From a virus, in the IMG/VR virus record IMGVR_UViG_3300046616_000610, positions 1 to 34,335 of that record: a DNA stretch of 34,335 bases; one strand, given 5' to 3'. The notes beneath the pieces were generated by a model. The model had not been told where the DNA came from. It saw only the letters and a list, made by a program, of their open reading frames with translations, and did no database searches. The translations under genes were made by a program, and so were the position numbers. Position 1 is the stretch's first letter; each line of letters begins with the position of its first letter. This document shows positions 1 through 34,335 of this stretch, in pieces.

Positions 1-423
1 TTAATGCATCATGACGCGTAGCATGTTTCTGACTTCGTCATTGTCTGCGCCCTTCACCAGGTAGTTGTAGAGCACAGCAATAATCGCGCCCTTCCTTTCT
101 GGAGGGATCACCTCTCCACACTCGGCTGCGTACTCTTCCAATGCGGTCACCGCTACTGCCAACAGGTCGGGATCCGCTTTACCTGGTCCGCCTCCGATAG
201 TGCCAACGACCCGCCCAGGCGCCTCATAAGACGTTTTCAGCATGTCCGTGATGGCCCGGTAGCGGGCAGGCAACTCAAACATTCTCCGAGTACCGCCCAG
301 GCCGGTGTGCTCTTCAAAGAACCAGCCTTCACGCTTGGCCTTCGCGCTTACTGCGACCTTTGACTGCGGCATCCCTGGCAGCTTCATAGCGGCAATTTCA
401 CTTGCGGAAAATAACTTTCTCAC
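1..423 (-). CDS. c: Mu-type c repressor
   Basis: Lysogeny repressor that should bind operators in the adjacent divergent region and shut off the early (transposition) promoter. The N-terminal half (residues about 3-55) is a Mu-type winged-helix DNA-binding domain, and about 30 of 49 residues match the N terminus of the transposase at 1481-3601, including the shared PGMP/PGLP, REGW and GGTRR motifs. This mirrors Mu, where c and A bind related operator DNA. The C-terminal part is short and helical, probably for oligomerisation and turnover control. I chose the GTG at 423 because GAGAG lies just upstream and the family homology starts there. An ATG at 480 would add 19 residues unlike the family and would run into the operator region. 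At 140 residues it is slightly shorter than Mu c. The stop codon is the very first triplet of the window. Confidence 0.85.
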   Translation of the reverse strand: MRKLFSASEIAAMKLPGMPQSKVAVSAKAKREGWFFEEHTGLGGTRRMFELPARYRAITDMLKTSYEAPGRVVGTIGGGPGKADPDLLAVAVTALEEYAAECGEVIPPERKGAIIAVLYNYLVKGADNDEVRNMLRVMMH

Positions 424-502
424 TTGTCTCTCTTTGTTGGTTAAGCGAAAAGCGCAACTGCAAAGTGATTCGCAGCGCATAGAAAAATATTGCTTATTTA
501 AA

Positions 503-1484: not shown

Positions 1485-3601
1485 CCGTGATTAAAGCCCA
1501 GTACAGCCTCACTGAGCTGGCGGCAATGCAACTACCAGGACTGCCGGCAACGAAGGTGGCTCTCAGCAACAAAGCACAGCGTGAAGGATGGCCATTCGTC
1601 GAGGTAACCGGGGTCGGCGGAACTCGTCGTGAATACACTCCGCCCGCCAACGTGGTCGAGGCTATCAAAGAAAAGGCAGCGCGTGAGGTTGTGGCGGTAG
1701 TCCCGGTCAAGCGGTTGGCGCTCAAACCCGAAGACCAGTTGCCGCTGATCGTGACCGAGAGCCAAGGCCTTCAGCTCGATGCTCGTAAGGGTGTCCTCCT
1801 GGCACTAGAAACCCTGATGAATCGCTCGGGCTACCCCTTGAAGAAGGCGGCTCGCATTCTCATCGAAATGGCGCGCAAGGGCGAAGCCGGCGAGCAGTTG
1901 GTCGCCATGCTCAAGATGGCACGCGACGGCCGGGGCCGCCCCAGTCCGGACGGCCTGCCCTCCGAGCGCAGTGTCCTGCGCTTCGTCGAGTACGAGCGTG
2001 CCGGCATGCTGGCACCGAAGAAGCGTGAAGCCGACATGTCGGTACCGCCCTGGGCGAAGGCGTTCATGGAGTACTACCAGCGGCCGGAGAAGCCGACCGT
2101 CGAGCACGCTTACCGCCAGTTTCTCAATGCCCTGGATGCGACGGATCAGGCGCCAAGCATCTGGAAGGTGCGCCGCTTCCTGGACAAGGTAGGCAAGGTC
2201 ACGCTGCAGCTGGGCCGAATGGGCGATCGCGAGATCAAAAGCCTCAAGGGCTTCGTGCGCCGCGACTTCGCCAGCCTGCTGCCGGGTGACATTTATAGCG
2301 CTGACGGTCACACGTTCGACGCCGAGGTCCAGCACCCGATGCACGGCCGCCCATTTCGTCCGGAGATCACCTCGGTAGTCGATATCGCCACCCGCAAGAC
2401 CGTAGGCTGGTCCGTCGGCCTGGCGGAAAGCGCCTTCGCGGTGCTCGACGCCCTGCGCGCCGCGGTGCTCACCGGCGGCATCCCGGCCGTGTTCTACGTC
2501 GACAACGGCTCGGGCTACAAGAACGAGCTGATGACCGACATCGGTACCGGCCTGCTCGCGCGCCTCGGCACCGAGATGATCAACAGCCTGCCCTACAACA
2601 GCCAGGCGCGCGGCGTGATTGAGAAGCTGCACCAGACCATCTGGGTCAACGCGGCGAAGGAGCTGCCCGGCTTCATCGGACGCGACATGGACCGCCAGGC
2701 GAAGCAGACGACGTTCAAGCTGTCTCGCAAGGCGCTGGCCAGCGCGGCCGGCGACGCGGTGGCGATGCCGCTGATGGCCTGGGACCGCTTCGTCGCCTTC
2801 TGCGAGGAAAAGGTCGCCGAGTACAACAACCGGCCACACCGCTCTCTGCCGAAGGTCACCGATCCCGCGACTGGCCGCCGCCGTCACATGACGCCGAACG
2901 AGGCTTGGGCGCGCGCCGAGGAGGCTGGGTTTGCTGCCCACCTGGTGACGGATGACGAGGCCCGGCCGCTGTTCCGCCCGCAGGTGCTGCGCACGGTGCG
3001 CCGCTGCGAGATCGAGCTGTTCGGCAATAGGTACTTCACCCGCAAGCTGGAAGAGTTCCATACCGAGCAGCTGCGCGTCGGCTACGACATCCACGACCCA
3101 GCGCATGTATGGGTCTACGACGAGGCCGGCCGCTTTATCTGCACCGCCGAACTGGACGGCAACAAGCGCGACTACATGCCGATGTCGGTCATCGAGCGGG
3201 CACGTGACAAGCGCGAGGCTGGCCGCGAGCGCCGCCTGGAAAACAAGCTGGAAGAAGTCCGCCTGGAGCGCCGTGGTGCCCCGGCTCTGGAGATGCCCCA
3301 GCAGATCAGCATCCCAGGCCTGATGGGCAGCATCAACCTGACCCAACTGGCCGAGCGTGCGCGCCAGGCCGAACTGGTGGAGGTGACGCCGATCCCCACA
3401 CCGGCACCGGTCGCCACCGTCACCACGATCCCCGAACAGCACGTTTGGACCGTCCCAACCACACCTGGCGAACGCTTCGCCGAATGGCAACGCATTGAAA
3501 GCTTGAGCGAGGAGGCGCTCGTAAGCGAGAAGCAAAAAAAATGGCGGAACACCTATCAGGAGTCCGCCGAGTTCAGAGCATTTTTGAAAAAAACAGCTTG
3601 A
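1481..3601 (+). CDS. A: MuA-type DDE transposase
   Basis: Catalyses end cleavage and strand transfer for integration and replicative transposition. Residues about 7-60 are the Mu-type end/enhancer-binding winged helix, with PGLP, REGW and GGTRR, paralogous to the c repressor. The integrase-like core carries the DDE triad: D275 (in SADGH), D341 (in YVDNGSG) and E381 (in ARGVIEKLH); the MuA residues are D269, D336 and E392. The Mu-transpos C-terminal barrel follows at about 490-570 (RPQVLRTVRRCEIELFGN and onward), then a basic, charged tail that in MuA contacts MuB and ClpX. At 706 residues it is a little longer than MuA (663). The start overlaps the upstream stop. All catalytic residues are present, so the element looks active. 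Confidence 0.95.
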   Translation: MTVIKAQYSLTELAAMQLPGLPATKVALSNKAQREGWPFVEVTGVGGTRREYTPPANVVEAIKEKAAREVVAVVPVKRLALKPEDQLPLIVTESQGLQLDARKGVLLALETLMNRSGYPLKKAARILIEMARKGEAGEQLVAMLKMARDGRGRPSPDGLPSERSVLRFVEYERAGMLAPKKREADMSVPPWAKAFMEYYQRPEKPTVEHAYRQFLNALDATDQAPSIWKVRRFLDKVGKVTLQLGRMGDREIKSLKGFVRRDFASLLPGDIYSADGHTFDAEVQHPMHGRPFRPEITSVVDIATRKTVGWSVGLAESAFAVLDALRAAVLTGGIPAVFYVDNGSGYKNELMTDIGTGLLARLGTEMINSLPYNSQARGVIEKLHQTIWVNAAKELPGFIGRDMDRQAKQTTFKLSRKALASAAGDAVAMPLMAWDRFVAFCEEKVAEYNNRPHRSLPKVTDPATGRRRHMTPNEAWARAEEAGFAAHLVTDDEARPLFRPQVLRTVRRCEIELFGNRYFTRKLEEFHTEQLRVGYDIHDPAHVWVYDEAGRFICTAELDGNKRDYMPMSVIERARDKREAGRERRLENKLEEVRLERRGAPALEMPQQISIPGLMGSINLTQLAERARQAELVEVTPIPTPAPVATVTTIPEQHVWTVPTTPGERFAEWQRIESLSEEALVSEKQKKWRNTYQESAEFRAFLKKTA

Positions 3602-3652
3602 TTAACGCCTGCCGCTGCAACGGTGGGCACTAGAACAGAAAGAAACCAGAGT

Positions 3653-4393
3653 ATGACGACTACGAATCAGCCGGTCAATCGTGTGGCCAACATCAGCAAC
3701 CTCGACCTGGTATCTGTCGCGGCCGAGAAACTCGCTTCCCGCGTGAACGGTCTGCCGGGCATTGGCGTGCTGTACGGCGAAGCCGGCCGGGGCAAGACCA
3801 TCGCCTGCTCCGCGATCGCCAACAAAACGCGCGGTTACTACGTCCAGACGATGAGCGCCTGGAACCGCAAGACCCTGCTGGAGAAGATCCTGTTTGAAAT
3901 GGGCGTCAAGCCGGCCGGCACCATCCCGGCGATGCTCGACATGGTCTGCGAGCAGCTGGGCGCCTCCGGCCGGCCGCTGATCATCGACGAGTTCGACCAC
4001 TGCCTCAAGAAGGACGGAATGGTCGAGCTGGTGCGCGACATCTACGAGGGCAGCCAGGGCACGCTTCTGCTGGTCGGCGAGGAACAGGTGCCGCAGAAGA
4101 TGAAGCGCTGGGAGCGCCTACACAGCCGCGTCCTGGCCTGGATTCCGGCCCTGGCGGCGTCGATGGACGACGCTCGCAAGCTCGCCCCGATCTACTGCCC
4201 CGGCGTCGCGATCGCCGACGACCTCCTGCAGCGCGTCGTCGACATGGCCCACGGCTCGATCCGCCGCGTCTGCGTCAACCTGACCCGCATCCACGAAGAA
4301 GCGATGCTGAAGGCCGAGTCCGAGATGACGCTGGCCACCTGGGGAGATCTCGACCTCTACACCGGCGACGCACCGAAGCGTAGGACGGTGTAA
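3653..4393 (+). CDS. B: MuB-like AAA+ target activator ATPase
   Basis: ATP-dependent DNA-binding protein that picks target DNA and stimulates the transposase. Walker A is GEAGRGKT at residues 42-49 and Walker B is LIIDEFD at about 109-115; a sensor-type LLLVGEE segment follows. The C-terminal region around MAHGSIRRVCVNL is the usual lid of the family. At 246 residues it is shorter than MuB (312), as in the B3/BcepMu-type relatives that lack the long N-terminal HTH domain. It follows the transposase by about 50 bases. I chose the ATG at 3653 over the GTG at 3623, because the extra ten residues are not family-like; neither has a strong ribosome site. Confidence 0.92.
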   Translation: MTTTNQPVNRVANISNLDLVSVAAEKLASRVNGLPGIGVLYGEAGRGKTIACSAIANKTRGYYVQTMSAWNRKTLLEKILFEMGVKPAGTIPAMLDMVCEQLGASGRPLIIDEFDHCLKKDGMVELVRDIYEGSQGTLLLVGEEQVPQKMKRWERLHSRVLAWIPALAASMDDARKLAPIYCPGVAIADDLLQRVVDMAHGSIRRVCVNLTRIHEEAMLKAESEMTLATWGDLDLYTGDAPKRRTV

Positions 4394-5383: not shown

Positions 5384-5748
5384 ACGTGCAAGTCCGTACT
5401 GCCCAGGTTGTTTCGCTTCGTCCGGCCGGCGCGACGATGGTCGTCGACGTCGACGCCAAGGAACAAGGCTCCAAGACGTTCAACGCTGCGTTCCTGGCGC
5501 GGCTGCAGGCCGCGAACGATATGTCGCGCTGGCTCCGTCAGAACGGCCATCCGCCGATGACGACCCACCTGCAGGGCCGGATGCCGGCCATCCACGTCGA
5601 CGGCGCCGCCGCTCGGTTGCTGATCACCCAGGCGCGCGGCTTCACCGGCCGTCGCATCAGCGACACCCACCGGCACTGCAGCGTCGAGCTGCGCAACTGC
5701 CTGGTCACCTGGTTCGAACCGATTCACCCCACCCACCACCCTGTCTGA
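5380..5748 (+). CDS. Hypothetical early protein
   Basis: A 122-residue soluble protein with no domain I recognise. The ATG at 5380 is preceded by AAAGGAAAG and overlaps the upstream stop; longer in-frame starts upstream would lie inside the neighbouring gene. A central stretch around MPAIHVDGAAARLLITQARGF and a His/Cys-containing segment (DTHRHCSVELRNCLV) are its only notable features. Confidence 0.55.
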   Translation: MNVQVRTAQVVSLRPAGATMVVDVDAKEQGSKTFNAAFLARLQAANDMSRWLRQNGHPPMTTHLQGRMPAIHVDGAAARLLITQARGFTGRRISDTHRHCSVELRNCLVTWFEPIHPTHHPV

Positions 5749-5764
5749 AAGAGGAGATCTACCG

Positions 5765-6034
5765 ATGAGCCAACAAGAACACTGGTCCAAGCGCCTGCAC
5801 GACATTCTGGTCGCCCAGGAAAAGCCGAGCTATGAACTGCTGGAGGAAGCCGTTCAGGAGCTGCTCCTGGAACGCCAGGGCCTCACCGCCACCTTGACCG
5901 ACATGGCGAAGCAGATCGGCCGCATCGTCATCGCACGCAAGGCCGACAGCACGGATGGCGTCCTGAGCCTTGTCGACACCCTGATCGCGGAGCACGTCCG
6001 CGAGAGCAAGCCGGCGTCGATGCTGACGCACTGA
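5765..6034 (+). CDS. Small helical early protein
   Basis: An 89-residue, mostly alpha-helical acidic protein; the first 50 residues could form a helical hairpin or short coiled coil. GAGGAG at 5751-5756 is well placed for the ATG. It lies in the early operon between other small genes. I do not recognise the family. Confidence 0.55.
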   Translation: MSQQEHWSKRLHDILVAQEKPSYELLEEAVQELLLERQGLTATLTDMAKQIGRIVIARKADSTDGVLSLVDTLIAEHVRESKPASMLTH

Positions 6035-6042
6035 GGTGATCT

Positions 6043-6183
6043 ATGGGCGCGTTTGATCCTCTTATCCCTTTAACGGGCCCGAGCCGCGAGGGTGCCGCAA
6101 AGCCGGCAGCGCCGACGCAGGCGCCTCCCAAGGCGCCAGCACCACGCGACTGGCCCATTCATATCGGCCCGACCGACATCTGA
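6043..6183 (+). CDS. Very small proline/alanine-rich ORF
   Basis: A 46-residue reading frame filling the gap between two early genes. It starts 8 bases after the preceding stop, with GAGGTGAT at 6033-6040 as a good ribosome site. The product is Pro/Ala rich (PAAPTQAPPKAPAP region) with a short hydrophobic-aromatic end (DWPIHIGP). Its support is the ribosome site and operon spacing; there is no recognisable domain. Confidence 0.4.
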   Translation: MGAFDPLIPLTGPSREGAAKPAAPTQAPPKAPAPRDWPIHIGPTDI

Positions 6184-29965: not shown

Positions 29966-31500
29966 TCGTTATTGACCCTGTAACCCTGGGCGACGTGGCC
30001 TGCTCGCGCCCATCAGCCAAATCCGCTTGGGACAGGAACGGCACGCTGGTACAGGTGCCGCCCGATACTCTGGCGGTGACCTATGACCCAAGCGACCTCA
30101 GCAAGGCACCGTATGCGCTGCTAGAGCCAGCGGCAACGAACCTGTTGCCAAACAGCGAGGGTGGGGTTGCAACTCTTGGCGCGGCGTTTGGCGTTTCCGA
30201 TGACGTCGGTTTCGCAGGGTTCGCTGCTGCGGTTCGCATGGGCGATAACTCGGTGAGCACACCCTACGCATACCGCACTTTCGCAACAGTTCCGGGCACG
30301 AAGTATGTGTTCTCGGTCTTCGTTTGCATGGACGACCGAGGCGTGCCAGTAGTGGCCCTGACGAACAACCCAGGAGCGCCTGGCGACTTCATGATGATCG
30401 TCCAGGCTGACGCCTGGAACGAGCCCTCGGTTGTCCAGGATTGCGGCAACGGGGTCTATCGGATCTCGACTACATTCACGGCCACCACCACCGGCACGAA
30501 TTATGGCATTGCGAAATACACAGCGCTGTCAAAGCGGGGCATGCGCGTTGCAGGATACCAACTTGAGGTAGGCAACCTGTCCAGCTACATAAAGACGCTC
30601 GCCGCTCCGGGTACTCGTGCTGCTGACGTGATCACTCCGGGTGCCGGCCTGGTGTATTCGAACGTGCCGATCGCCGAGCAGCCATATGACGCGACTGCGA
30701 CGTATGCGAAGGACACGGTCGTCTACGACCGAATCACGCACCTGACCTATCGCTCGGTGATCGACGCAAACAAGGGCTTTCCGCTGACTGACGTCACCAA
30801 GTGGACAAAGGGTGACGTCATCAATCGTTGGAAGATGCTCGACCAGTACAACAACACCCAGACGAGCAATCCCGACGAGATCCTCCTGGTCGTTTCTCCG
30901 AAGGTAATTGCTCAAGGTTTTTATCTGGGCAATATGGATGCCAACGAGGTTCGTGTGAGCGTGGTCGACCTCTATGAGGGCGTCGTATATCGCGAGGTGC
31001 AAAACCTCGTCGTATCAACATCCCGATCCAGCTTCTTCAAATGGTTTTTCGGCCGCATCCGTAGGAAAAGCTACGCCGTCAGCGTGCTCCTGCCGGTCTA
31101 CGCGAAAGCCCTCATCACGATTTCCATAAGGAAGATCGGTTCGACCCCGAAGTGCGGCATGTGTGCTGTCGGCCCGGTAATCGACGTCGGGCTATCTGAG
31201 TGGGGAATCGCCACCGAGATCAAGGATTACTCGACGACAACCTTCCAGTTCGACGGCACAAGCGACACCCAGCAGCGTGGCTTCTCCAGGAGGATGAGCC
31301 TCGATGTTGAGGTTGATAACGACCAGAAAGACGTGGTGGAGGAAACGCTTGCCCAGTTCCGGCAAAAGCCGGTTGCTTGGATCGGCACCGTGTTGTGGGG
31401 TAGCGCTTGCGTATTCGGCCGTTATTCCAGTTTCAAAAGCGTACTGGCCAATGTAAGGAAATCAAAGATGTCTCTCCAAATCGAAGGAACTGTTCAGTGA
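29962..31500 (+). CDS. Tail tip protein with carbohydrate-binding-like modules
   Basis: A 512-residue tail protein. The start (MIVIDPVTLGDV) and the end (RMSLDVEVDNDQKDVVEETLAQFR to SLQIEGTVQ) are those of a tail tip protein found in several siphophages. Between them lies a jelly-roll-like insert (about 50-215: LLEPAATNLLPNSEGG, TVPGTKYVFSVFV, YQLEVGNLSSYI), typical of sugar-binding modules on phage tails, and a CBM5/12-like unit (about 245-275: YDATATYAKDTVVYD, LTYRSVIDANKG). It likely touches host surface glycans. AT content is higher than in head genes. It overlaps the tape measure stop by 4 bases. Confidence 0.68.
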   Translation: MIVIDPVTLGDVACSRPSAKSAWDRNGTLVQVPPDTLAVTYDPSDLSKAPYALLEPAATNLLPNSEGGVATLGAAFGVSDDVGFAGFAAAVRMGDNSVSTPYAYRTFATVPGTKYVFSVFVCMDDRGVPVVALTNNPGAPGDFMMIVQADAWNEPSVVQDCGNGVYRISTTFTATTTGTNYGIAKYTALSKRGMRVAGYQLEVGNLSSYIKTLAAPGTRAADVITPGAGLVYSNVPIAEQPYDATATYAKDTVVYDRITHLTYRSVIDANKGFPLTDVTKWTKGDVINRWKMLDQYNNTQTSNPDEILLVVSPKVIAQGFYLGNMDANEVRVSVVDLYEGVVYREVQNLVVSTSRSSFFKWFFGRIRRKSYAVSVLLPVYAKALITISIRKIGSTPKCGMCAVGPVIDVGLSEWGIATEIKDYSTTTFQFDGTSDTQQRGFSRRMSLDVEVDNDQKDVVEETLAQFRQKPVAWIGTVLWGSACVFGRYSSFKSVLANVRKSKMSLQIEGTVQ

Positions 31501-32489
31501 TTACAAAAATGATGAGTGGCCTGCCACTGCGGACAATGGACGAAGAACCATTCAACGAAGCAGTTGCGCAGCTGATGCGTGACTGGCCGATCTGGAATCA
31601 ACAGGTCAACGAATTGGTGGCTAACTTGAACGCCATCGCTGCTGGTGGAGCGTATGCGATTCCTTACACCTTCACCAACGGATTCAACGACAACGGTCTG
31701 TGCTTCAACATGACCACTCCGGGCACGCAAACGAGTGTCTACGAAGTGGTTGTTGGTCTTTTCGATGTCAGCAATAAGGGAGTTAGCGCGCTCCTCGACA
31801 GTATGTATGCCGGCGCGACAGGCACGATCAAGGGCATGTTCCGAATCGTCAAGGTTGGCGATATGTCGAAGTTCATGGTGCTCAGCACCACGGGTGTCGT
31901 CGGTAACAGCAATGCCCGTTCGCTTGTCGTCCAGCACATCGCGTCCAGCGGCGGGAGCCCCTTCACCGTGGGCGATATGGTTGTGCTGCAGTTCACCCCC
32001 GCCGGCCCAGCGGGCAACACCGGGCCGGCCGGTAGCCTGCTCGTTCCGCGCCTGCAAATCCGCGAGGAGTACGCCAACGGTGTTGCCGGGCCGATGTATA
32101 ACACGGGCGGATGGTATACGCGTTTGTTCAATTCCACGGCTGTGAACACGATCCCGAACGCCTCCGTCGCGAGCAGTTCGGCCACGCTGGACCCTGGCAC
32201 CTACGACGTAGACGCGTGGGCCGTGGTATTCGGCGCTGACGTTCGCCATCGCATCGCCCTCAAGAACACTTCGAGCGGTGCTTTCATTACATTCGGCTCA
32301 TCCGAATGGATCGGCCCGAACCAATACGCCAGCGTCGGGAAATCGGTCCTCAAGGATCGCATCAAGGTCGATGTGCGGAGCAATTTCCAGCTGCAGCACT
32401 TCGTCTCGGGATCGTGTTCGAGCGGGGCCGCCGTATCCGCCTCAGCCGTCGAACGCTATTCTGAAATCATCTTTGAAAAGGTGGCCTGA
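31497..32489 (+). CDS. Putative tail fibre with collagen-like hinge and jelly-roll head
   Basis: A 330-residue protein, start GTG at 31497 with GAAGGA about 9 bases upstream and overlap of the previous stop. Residues 20-50 (a WNQQVNELVANLNAI helix) would trimerise at the tail. Residues 55-165 form a beta domain. A short collagen-like GPAGNTGPAG (170-179) leads to a C-terminal jelly-roll of C1q/TNF look (YNTGGWYTRLFNS, LDPGTYDVDAWAVVF, RIALKN). The last domain is probably the receptor-binding part. Function is inferred from architecture and position. Confidence 0.6.
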   Translation: MITKMMSGLPLRTMDEEPFNEAVAQLMRDWPIWNQQVNELVANLNAIAAGGAYAIPYTFTNGFNDNGLCFNMTTPGTQTSVYEVVVGLFDVSNKGVSALLDSMYAGATGTIKGMFRIVKVGDMSKFMVLSTTGVVGNSNARSLVVQHIASSGGSPFTVGDMVVLQFTPAGPAGNTGPAGSLLVPRLQIREEYANGVAGPMYNTGGWYTRLFNSTAVNTIPNASVASSSATLDPGTYDVDAWAVVFGADVRHRIALKNTSSGAFITFGSSEWIGPNQYASVGKSVLKDRIKVDVRSNFQLQHFVSGSCSSGAAVSASAVERYSEIIFEKVA

Positions 32490-33122: not shown

Positions 33123-33653
33123 GTGCAGACCATCACACTGCTGTTCACCCGGCGCCGCTTCAATCCGATCTCGTGGCTGATCCGCTGGGCGATTCCACGT
33201 TCCCGATTTGCGCTGGCTTTGTCATCGCACTGCATCATCGACGCTGGCGACAAGCTCTACGAGGCGACTATGCTGCATGGAGTGCGGGAGGTCGATCGTG
33301 CGACGGCTCTCAAGGGTCAGACGGTTGTCCTGCAACGCGCCTATCGCGTCAGGGACGCGGCTGCAGGCATCGAATGGGTGAAGGCCCAGCTCTGCAGGTA
33401 CGAGGCCCAGGCGCCCGCCTGGCTCCCTCAGTGGGCGCGGCGGTTGTACTGTGCGGCAGCGCTGGTCCTCAACAGTAACTACGACTGGCCTGGCGCGCTC
33501 GGCCTGGGCCTGTCGCCCTATCGTGATTGGGCAGCCGAAGGCTTCTGGTTCTGCTATGAACTGGGAGCCGGATGCCTAGTCGCGGCCGGGCGTGATGACT
33601 TCGCGGACACTGGCCACATCACCGAGGCAGCGCTGCTGATGATTAAGCCGTAG
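33123..33653 (+). CDS. Permuted papain-like (NlpC/P60-type) protein
   Basis: A 176-residue protein. SHCII (H36) near the N terminus and EGFWFCYELGAG (C144, E146) near the C terminus match the permuted papain layout (His first, Cys in WFC-E later), as does YDWPGALGLGL (120-130). Such phage proteins are probable hydrolases or acyl-transfer enzymes; in a tail operon, wall or lipid cleavage at entry is likely. A hydrophobic insert lies at about 105-116. The start is GTG at 33123, with GGGGG about 10 bases upstream. It is the last gene before the terminator. Confidence 0.65.
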   Translation: MQTITLLFTRRRFNPISWLIRWAIPRSRFALALSSHCIIDAGDKLYEATMLHGVREVDRATALKGQTVVLQRAYRVRDAAAGIEWVKAQLCRYEAQAPAWLPQWARRLYCAAALVLNSNYDWPGALGLGLSPYRDWAAEGFWFCYELGAGCLVAAGRDDFADTGHITEAALLMIKP

Positions 33654-33671
33654 ACCGAAGACAGCGTCGAA

Positions 33672-33709
33672 AAAAGACAAGGCCGCTTTCCCTAACGGCC
33701 TTGTCTTTT
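33672..33709. terminator. Bidirectional terminator between convergent operons
   Basis: AAAAGACAAGGCCG (33672-33685) and CGGCCTTGTCTTTT (33696-33709) form a perfect 14-bp stem with a 10-base loop. Read rightward it ends in TTTT; read leftward in six Ts. It closes the late tail operon on one strand and the two-gene operon on the other. Confidence 0.9.
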
Positions 33710-33742
33710 CAGCGGACGTGACGCGGTTACCCTTCGATCCGT

Positions 33743-33940
33743 CTACGGGTCTTTAAAAACAGCGGTCGACAAGGGGGAGCGGCGCCGCTCCGCCGGCAAG
33801 GCCATCACGCGCACTGCGACATCGAGCGGCACGCCGCTGACCGCGAGCGAATAAGTTGCCTCCAGCCATCCGATGACTGGTAGCAAGGTAAGCACCAGGT
33901 CAACCCGACTCGCCGTGACGAGATCGATGCGCGATATCAT
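33743..33940 (-). CDS. Small reverse-strand protein, right end
   Basis: A 65-residue protein: N-terminal MISRIDLVTASRVDLV, a hydrophobic middle (LTLLPVIGWLEATYSLAV) that could be a membrane segment or buried helix, then GVPLDVAVRVMALPAERRR. Its ATG overlaps the stop of the secreted-protein gene (ATGA on the reverse strand), so it is translationally coupled, and it ends 34 bases before the terminator. No family recognised. A TTG 6 bases upstream is possible but has no ribosome site. Confidence 0.55.
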   Translation of the reverse strand: MISRIDLVTASRVDLVLTLLPVIGWLEATYSLAVSGVPLDVAVRVMALPAERRRSPLSTAVFKDP

Positions 33941-34335
33941 TTGCAAAGTGCTGTTACTGACGCCGCGCTATTGTCAGCGTTGCCAGACTTAACATGCCTT
34001 TCCTGCAGGTTGCACCGAGTGACCTCCGGGTCAAGCTGTATCCACCACTCGGCATCCTCCGGCCTTTTACGTTCGGAGGGTTTCCTGAAGTCATACAAGC
34101 AGACGAGCCAGCCGTGGTCACCGAAGTCGTACTGGGTGTCGATACCACCCTTAACGCGTTTACTGTCAGCACCCGCCAGCCAACCATTGCCATGCTTCTC
34201 GCCCCACATGATTCTGGCGCCAGTTAACGGGGCGTCCGAATGATTGTTGTCGGGATGGAACTGGGGGCACTTGTAGACTTGGGCATTGACGGCTGCGCAG
34301 GAGAGTGTAAGGGTGATAAATAAAAGCCCCTTCAT
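33937..34335 (-). CDS. Secreted four-cysteine protein (STY0301-like)
   Basis: A 132-residue exported protein: signal peptide MKGLLFITLTLSCAAVNA, cleaved before QVYKC. The mature part has four cysteines (YKCPQF, WLVCLYDF, VTRCNLQ, ALCK), likely two disulfides, and a GGIDTQYDFGDHGWLVCLY strand pair, in the style of the STY0301 family of periplasmic proteins of unknown function. It lies on the reverse strand beyond the tail genes, a typical place for phage cargo (compare mom in Mu), but could be host DNA, since the right end is not seen. Its start codon is the last triplet of the window. Confidence 0.6.
   Translation of the reverse strand: MKGLLFITLTLSCAAVNAQVYKCPQFHPDNNHSDAPLTGARIMWGEKHGNGWLAGADSKRVKGGIDTQYDFGDHGWLVCLYDFRKPSERKRPEDAEWWIQLDPEVTRCNLQERHVKSGNADNSAASVTALCK

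Follow-up and report, generated by a model that had tools for sequence, protein, structure and literature searches.

A predicted T6SS immunity gene and a small conserved partner gene, probable right-end cargo of a D3112-like transposable phage

Results

A reverse-strand gene pair at the end of a transposable phage record

The window analysed here is the whole of IMG/VR virus record IMGVR_UViG_3300046616_000610, 34,335 bases long. Its right-hand end holds two reverse-strand genes at 33937-34335 and 33743-33940 that overlap by ATGA, as an earlier note on this DNA had described. The features relevant to their interpretation are as follows.

1..480, reverse strand: c repressor-like gene (the c of the earlier note), with no more than weak PHROG matches; the record opens on its stop codon
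1481..3601, forward strand: A transposase of a D3112-like transposable phage; PHROG 310, E 1.9e-172; 54.8% identical to D3112 A
33123..33653, forward strand: last forward phage gene, following a tail-fibre-assembly-like gene; PHROG 1128 (moron/auxiliary), E 3.9e-8
33672..33709, no strand assigned: bidirectional terminator-like perfect 14-bp inverted repeat between convergent operons; from sequence and folding
33743..33940, reverse strand: 65-aa protein of a conserved unnamed family, with an ATGA overlap with the predicted immunity gene; from alignments A1 and A2, a codon test and 43 viral loci
33937..34335, reverse strand: STY0301-family (Tai2-like) predicted periplasmic immunity protein, complete at 132 aa; NF042415; its start codon forms the last bases of the record

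The window encodes DNA transposition protein B (PHROG 296 match) as well as the D3112-like A transposase, the combination by which D3112-like transposable phages are recognised, and on these gene contents we classify the virus as one of them. The sequence opens with the reverse c-like gene's stop codon and closes with the ATG of the last reverse gene, so both ends of the record look trimmed at gene boundaries. In relatives the left end lies beyond the c-like gene; here it would have been trimmed away.

On the forward strand, the last phage gene is preceded by a gene matching PHROG 8258 (tail fibre assembly), and its relatives border an accessory slot in other phages, near the 65-aa family. The stop codon of a 93% relative of this last gene is the exact end of two IMG/VR records (L042 and L043), which therefore cannot show the DNA that follows; cargo beyond that gene may have been trimmed from both as host-like. 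A search of viral contigs with the ORF at 31407-32489 gave no match.

Folding is in keeping with the perfect terminator that had been proposed between the pair and the tail operon. The repeat arms at 33672-33685 and 33696-33709 enclose a 10-nt loop, and the hairpin is stable on both strands (-24.1 and -28.1 kcal/mol, z -5.2 and -5.8). A rule-based scan between the operons called neither a terminator nor a promoter, with a terminator rule that covers loops of 3-8 only. Judged by sequence and predicted folding, a strong bidirectional hairpin of terminator-like form closes the reverse operon.

The 132-aa protein belongs to the STY0301 family

Searches against NCBIfam placed the 132-aa protein in the STY0301 family (NF042415, 25.2 bits, E 1.1e-5; curated cut-off 22 bits). 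It has an apparent signal peptide, MKGLLFITLTLSCAAVNA, recognised by eye, and the four cysteines on which the earlier note had remarked (23, 79, 108 and 131, all in the mature part) are invariant across the 14 sequences of alignment A3, window included. Its nearest relative found, 79% identical, is encoded in Massilia rhizosphaerae (L002, 6001-6399), where the STY0301 gene stands directly behind Hcp and BPSL0067-family genes, all in a row. With the window protein as query, STY0301 genes were found in 14 of 392 genomes of a family sample, at 21 places, and a second count gave 22 of 62 genomes.

Structure-based and phage-based searches were less informative. The predicted structure is beta-rich (pLDDT 82.1); Foldseek returned no match at E<=0.001 and thus no relative of known function, and the best VIA match, to small-heat-shock/alpha-crystallin domains (Z 3.8), is not informative. 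Alignment A3 had a single chance-level match among PDB sequences, a lectin at E 0.34. Neither the 132-aa nor the 65-aa protein has a PHROG family at E 0.01, a search of viral contigs with the single window protein gave no match, and the phages collection gave none with either the window end as DNA or the window protein.

Relatives place a Tae2-like gene before STY0301

At 20 of the 21 genome STY0301 loci found with the window protein, the STY0301 gene is preceded on the same strand by a BPSL0067 gene; a second STY0301 gene intervenes in L056, BPSL0067 is partial in L052 and in pieces in L055, and it was not detected in L059. Hcp is present within the 1.5-kb flanks in 17 of these 21 loci. A BPSL0067 profile, most of whose members came from loci found through the 65-aa gene, identified 20 loci on 19 viral contigs. 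STY0301 follows BPSL0067 in all 20 (cut by the locus end in L207); 13 of these loci were known from earlier searches, several being near-identical, and the 7 new ones all agree on STY0301. Hcp precedes BPSL0067 in 6 of the 20. At all 12 junctions examined in relatives, the start of the immunity gene overlaps the stop codon of the effector gene (11 ATGA, 1 GTGA); by coordinates the overlap holds for 13 of 15 pairs. The window gene likewise begins with ATGA.

The BPSL0067 profile matched PDB 6WIN (Tae2, type 6 secretion amidase effector 2) at E=1.6e-27, and the single BPSL0067 sequence of L002 did so at E 5.1e-5. All 13 BPSL0067-family sequences compared share Cys40 and His94. By homology and conserved Cys/His residues, then, the upstream gene of the relatives qualifies as a predicted Tae2 amidase effector. 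Taken together, the NF042415 match, the gene order in relatives and the Tae2 match of the BPSL0067 profile make a Tai2-like immunity gene the best reading of the 132-aa gene, whose product most likely serves as a Tai2-like immunity protein in the periplasm. The benefit to the lysogen that the earlier note had thought probable would thereby take a specific form, T6SS immunity. Its idea of an undescribed stand-alone two-gene system is not supported: the 132-aa gene has a family name, and BPSL0067 precedes it in relatives.

Searches of the phages collection added little. The BPSL0067 protein of L148 had no match there, that of G395 had one partial match, and the Hcp of L002 matched seven records, four of them short and unannotated and three long contigs of host-like size.

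Further Hcp-linked arrangements occur in other contigs. In L105 (5324-6735), Hcp-BPSL0067-STY0301 lies between a major head gene (PHROG 9953) and a tail gene (PHROG 6013), with one unnamed ORF after the cassette; L201 (5496-6917) has a cassette among phage structural genes that by eye is the same as that of L105. An Hcp gene (5644-6129) ends contig L099, which resembles a filamentous phage and has a Zot-like ORF recognised by eye (2752-3918). Another Hcp-linked unit, in L102 (10505-11103), L101 (3782-4210) and L134, joins a 142-aa protein, which has no Pfam or PHROG family above threshold, to a 93-aa probable membrane protein; we regard these two genes as a candidate new effector-immunity pair.

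The 65-aa gene belongs to a conserved phage-associated family

The small partner gene also proved to be real. Among eight chosen homologues (28 pairwise comparisons, which are not independent, and 1513 aligned codons), differences at the three codon positions numbered 367, 305 and 724, indicating a coding gene whose protein is under selection. A spurious ORF had been suspected, since similarity to L002 stops after 28 codons with nearly equal differences at the three codon positions (7, 8 and 11); phage homologues and the codon test ruled this out. The gene is intact in the window and in phages, and broken off after 28 codons in L002. The family has no match above threshold in Pfam, NCBIfam or PHROG.

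We found the family at 43 viral loci and counted over 42, dropping L156 because it looks the same as L155; no further thinning was made, and several loci are near-identical. T6SS cassettes lie beside 19 of the 42, and none of the searched types was seen at the other 23, where contig ends may hide some. The BPSL0067-STY0301 type lies upstream within 58 bases at 10 of the 42, Tae4/Rap1a on either side at 6 (about 1 kb off in L150) and another Hcp-linked type at 3; Pfam confirmed Tae4 in L127, L133 and L152 and Rap1a in L127 and L133. By our own models, an opposite-strand gene of phage lysis or tail-end type lies downstream at 30 of the 42 loci and an integrase upstream at 10.

Seen from the cassettes, the 65-aa gene is downstream in 10 of the 20 viral BPSL0067 loci, all 10 known through earlier searches, and in none of the 7 newly found ones, two of which have weak upstream matches. 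In genomes it accompanies STY0301 at 2 of 21 loci, once truncated and once as a weak match; 186 of the 392 genomes have 65-aa matches, mostly weak among the matches listed. The earlier note had asked whether the pair is common as chromosomal genes, and the answer is split: the immunity gene recurs in genomes at the frequencies given above, where some copies may belong to prophages, and the pair, seen at those 2 of 21 loci, is not common. Because 23 of 42 loci are without a cassette and none of the 7 new BPSL0067 loci has the gene downstream, the family is not specific to T6SS cassettes. These distributions suggest that the gene goes with a phage slot, not with any single toxin, and is loosely tied to the cassettes.

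An AlphaFold model of the 65-aa protein (pLDDT 80.8) has helices at 4-34, 39-47 and 49-52, and Foldseek gave three PDB matches with it, the best at E 3.4, hence no known relative. An HTH regulator was considered; the model, a long helix followed by short ones, and the Foldseek result left that idea open.

Other genes recur around these loci. An unannotated relative of the 65-aa protein (56% over 50 aa) lies near recombinase genes on a Massilia litorea plasmid (L124, 6001-6150). A DUF2471-family gene stands directly before the 65-aa gene in L144 (5293-5598, confirmed as PF10616), L149 and L162, and before Hcp in L150. A family of about 96 aa beginning MYSIV is found beside the same accessory slot in L101 (2664-2954), L132, L133, L144, L152-L154, L158-L160 and L163, on the strand opposite the cassettes in integrase-type phages; inspection by eye showed similar ORFs close to the G344 and G236 right ends (L108 and L110). 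What we take to be an ImuA-like gene adjoins the slot in L102, L128-L131, L136, L137, L146, L148-L151 and L162, in some of these loci by the integrase, and is possibly the attachment site.

The pair probably lies inside the phage

Whether the phage ends before the pair was addressed with three relatives in which both ends were mapped (G395, G344 and G236). By eye, their termini read TGTG..CTACA and are flanked by five-base target duplications (CTTTC, GAGAG and GGAGG, with CTTTC at both ends of G395), and their right ends carry two TGCCAAAA repeats 22 bases apart before finishing in ..CTACA. We therefore took GTGCCAAAA repeats plus ..CTACA as the right-end signature, which rests on these three relatives. 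In leave-one-out runs, a right-end model scored the true ends at 30.8-41.9 and the runner-up positions in those loci at 10.9-13.9.

Over 33600-34335 the best score of this model was 1.6, with no signature (13.2 was the best in the whole window); the model thus gives no sign that the phage stops to the left of the pair. This stretch includes 33709-33743, where the earlier note had asked for a right end to be sought. In G395, reverse-oriented STY0301, BPSL0067 and Hcp genes occupy the slot between the forward phage genes and the terminus, the layout that we predict for the window phage. This full cassette lies inside the phage termini, and G395 is the sole transposable relative seen with one; G344 and G236 have other cargo in the right-end slot. 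On this comparison the pair, placed at the phage right end by the earlier note, probably belongs to the phage and occupies an accessory slot at its right end.

The A transposase was present in 11 of the 392 genomes. G344 and G236, which gave both ends, are among these, and G395 is the third phage; G383, G167, G105, G120 and G372 yielded no right-end pair with the motif used, the G370 contig stops before the right end, and G363, G163 and G355 were left out of the end mapping. Four genomes with a good last-gene match (G053, G252, G076 and G391) fall outside these 11 and therefore yielded no ends, and by eye the right-hand stretch of G396 (L079) ends within phage genes.

Discussion

The likely explanation, in our view, is a T6SS effector-immunity cassette of which the pair forms the 3' part. 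The cassette would be cargo in the right-end slot of a D3112-like transposable phage whose hosts are Massilia-like bacteria. Because the record is cut at gene boundaries and ends on the immunity start codon, we would place the effector gene directly upstream, past 34335, where it would encode a Tae2-like (BPSL0067-family) Cys-His amidase, with or without a preceding Hcp gene.

A lysogen would use the host's own T6SS to deliver this amidase to the periplasm of neighbouring cells. Lysogenic sisters would be spared by the 132-aa protein, which, once exported to their periplasm and disulphide-bonded, would bind the enzyme. Non-lysogenic kin would be killed, and the clone that bears the phage would spread more readily. 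In the genus to which the L002 genome belongs, 57 of 62 genomes have the TssC sheath gene; lysogens among such bacteria would therefore come with an injector, to which the phage would supply both ammunition and antidote. The helical 65-aa protein would be accessory slot cargo, placed for translational coupling and possibly regulatory.

Other explanations were weighed against this one. One is that the cassette belongs to the host, as a chromosomal Hcp-BPSL0067-STY0301 operon beside which the phage inserted by transposition, with a phage right end that is lost or unrecognisable. The same cassette does occur on the Massilia scaffold of L002 with bacterial genes on both sides (ORFs presumably metH- and fmt-like), STY0301 genes are patchy among genomes, and DNA similarity to L002 extends over 475 bases at 81%, reaching 76 bases past the immunity stop codon. 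However, the right-end signature present in the three mapped relatives does not appear in 33600-34335, the 65-aa gene that breaks off in L002 is intact in the window and in phages, and G395 carries the cassette within its own ends; we consider a host origin unlikely.

It is also quite unlikely that the phage has the immunity gene and the 65-aa gene alone, protecting lysogens from the Tae2 of neighbours without killing. No effector lies within the window, and at L059, a genome locus, no BPSL0067 was detected with STY0301; yet BPSL0067 precedes STY0301 at all 20 viral loci and at all but this one of the 21 in genomes (counting the partial L052 and broken L055). Superinfection exclusion or envelope-altering lysogenic conversion, which the earlier note had suggested, would suit an apparently exported, cysteine-rich protein encoded on the reverse strand at a phage right end. 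We now think it highly improbable, as the STY0301 family and gene order point instead to the immunity gene of a Tae2-like effector, and neither protein falls in a PHROG family at E 0.01.

A broader reading, which we put forward tentatively and at less than even confidence, is that temperate phages of Oxalobacteraceae (transposable, integrase-type and podovirus-like) keep slots with interchangeable T6SS cassettes for use against non-lysogenic kin, the protein of about 60 aa perhaps controlling the cassette or tying it to lysogeny. The cassette types meant are Tae2-like/STY0301, Tae4/Rap1a and others, and many right-end slots would also contain a hitherto unnamed helical protein of about 60 aa.

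With the phage-cassette reading, an anonymous gene pair at a phage end has a named, testable function, and phage-borne T6SS arsenals extend to a D3112-type transposable phage. Such phages insert nearly anywhere and could therefore spread weapons without a fixed attachment site. If the reading is true, the phage turns its host's T6SS into a weapon against non-lysogenic kin. The analysis also exposes a conserved small family that recurs beside unrelated T6SS cassettes in phages, and a hazard of virus records: trimming at gene boundaries can hide cargo, and in this record the predicted effector would have been cut off precisely where the immunity gene begins.

Comparison with known systems

Compared with Pseudomonas phage D3112, the window virus has a related A transposase and likewise a c-like gene at the left; D3112 differs in its last 3.6 kb, where three genes are annotated, none of them a T6SS gene. 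The open-licence literature searched contained no BPSL0067/STY0301 cassette in phages, no Tae2/BPSL0067 in a transposable phage and no 65-aa family.

Tae2/Tai2 is an established pair of peptidoglycan amidase and immunity protein from Salmonella SPI-6 (PMC10469887, in excerpt). As there, the upstream gene of our relatives is homologous to Tae2, has invariant Cys and His residues and is followed by the immunity gene; in contrast, the Salmonella pair, according to that excerpt, sits in a variable region of a chromosomal T6SS island and is not phage cargo. The Tai2 likeness of the window protein comes from gene order in relatives, not from direct similarity to characterised Tai2.

T6SS toxin/immunity clusters as prophage cargo are closest in kind. 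Ralstonia myo-, sipho- and inovirus prophages carry such aux clusters, and phiRSY1-like phages are reported to carry them in virions (PMC11481896, in excerpt). Many of the Ralstonia clusters have lipases, however, and the excerpted text of that report includes no transposable phage, BPSL0067/STY0301 or 65-aa family. Aux3 of Vibrio cholerae is likewise a prophage-like element with a T6SS effector, the peptidoglycan-degrading TseH, and an immunity gene, but it is an integrase-type element with PAAR-assisted loading and another effector, and its authors, in the portion of the report available, found no tailed particle (PMC7721734). In Myxococcus xanthus, prophage T6SS effector loci similarly discriminate against related strains without immunity, in a different host group and with other effectors (PMC10047993, a review, in excerpt). 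Phage-carried T6SS toxin clusters have thus already been published; what our sequence comparison would add is the cassette type, the transposable vehicle and the small 65-aa family.
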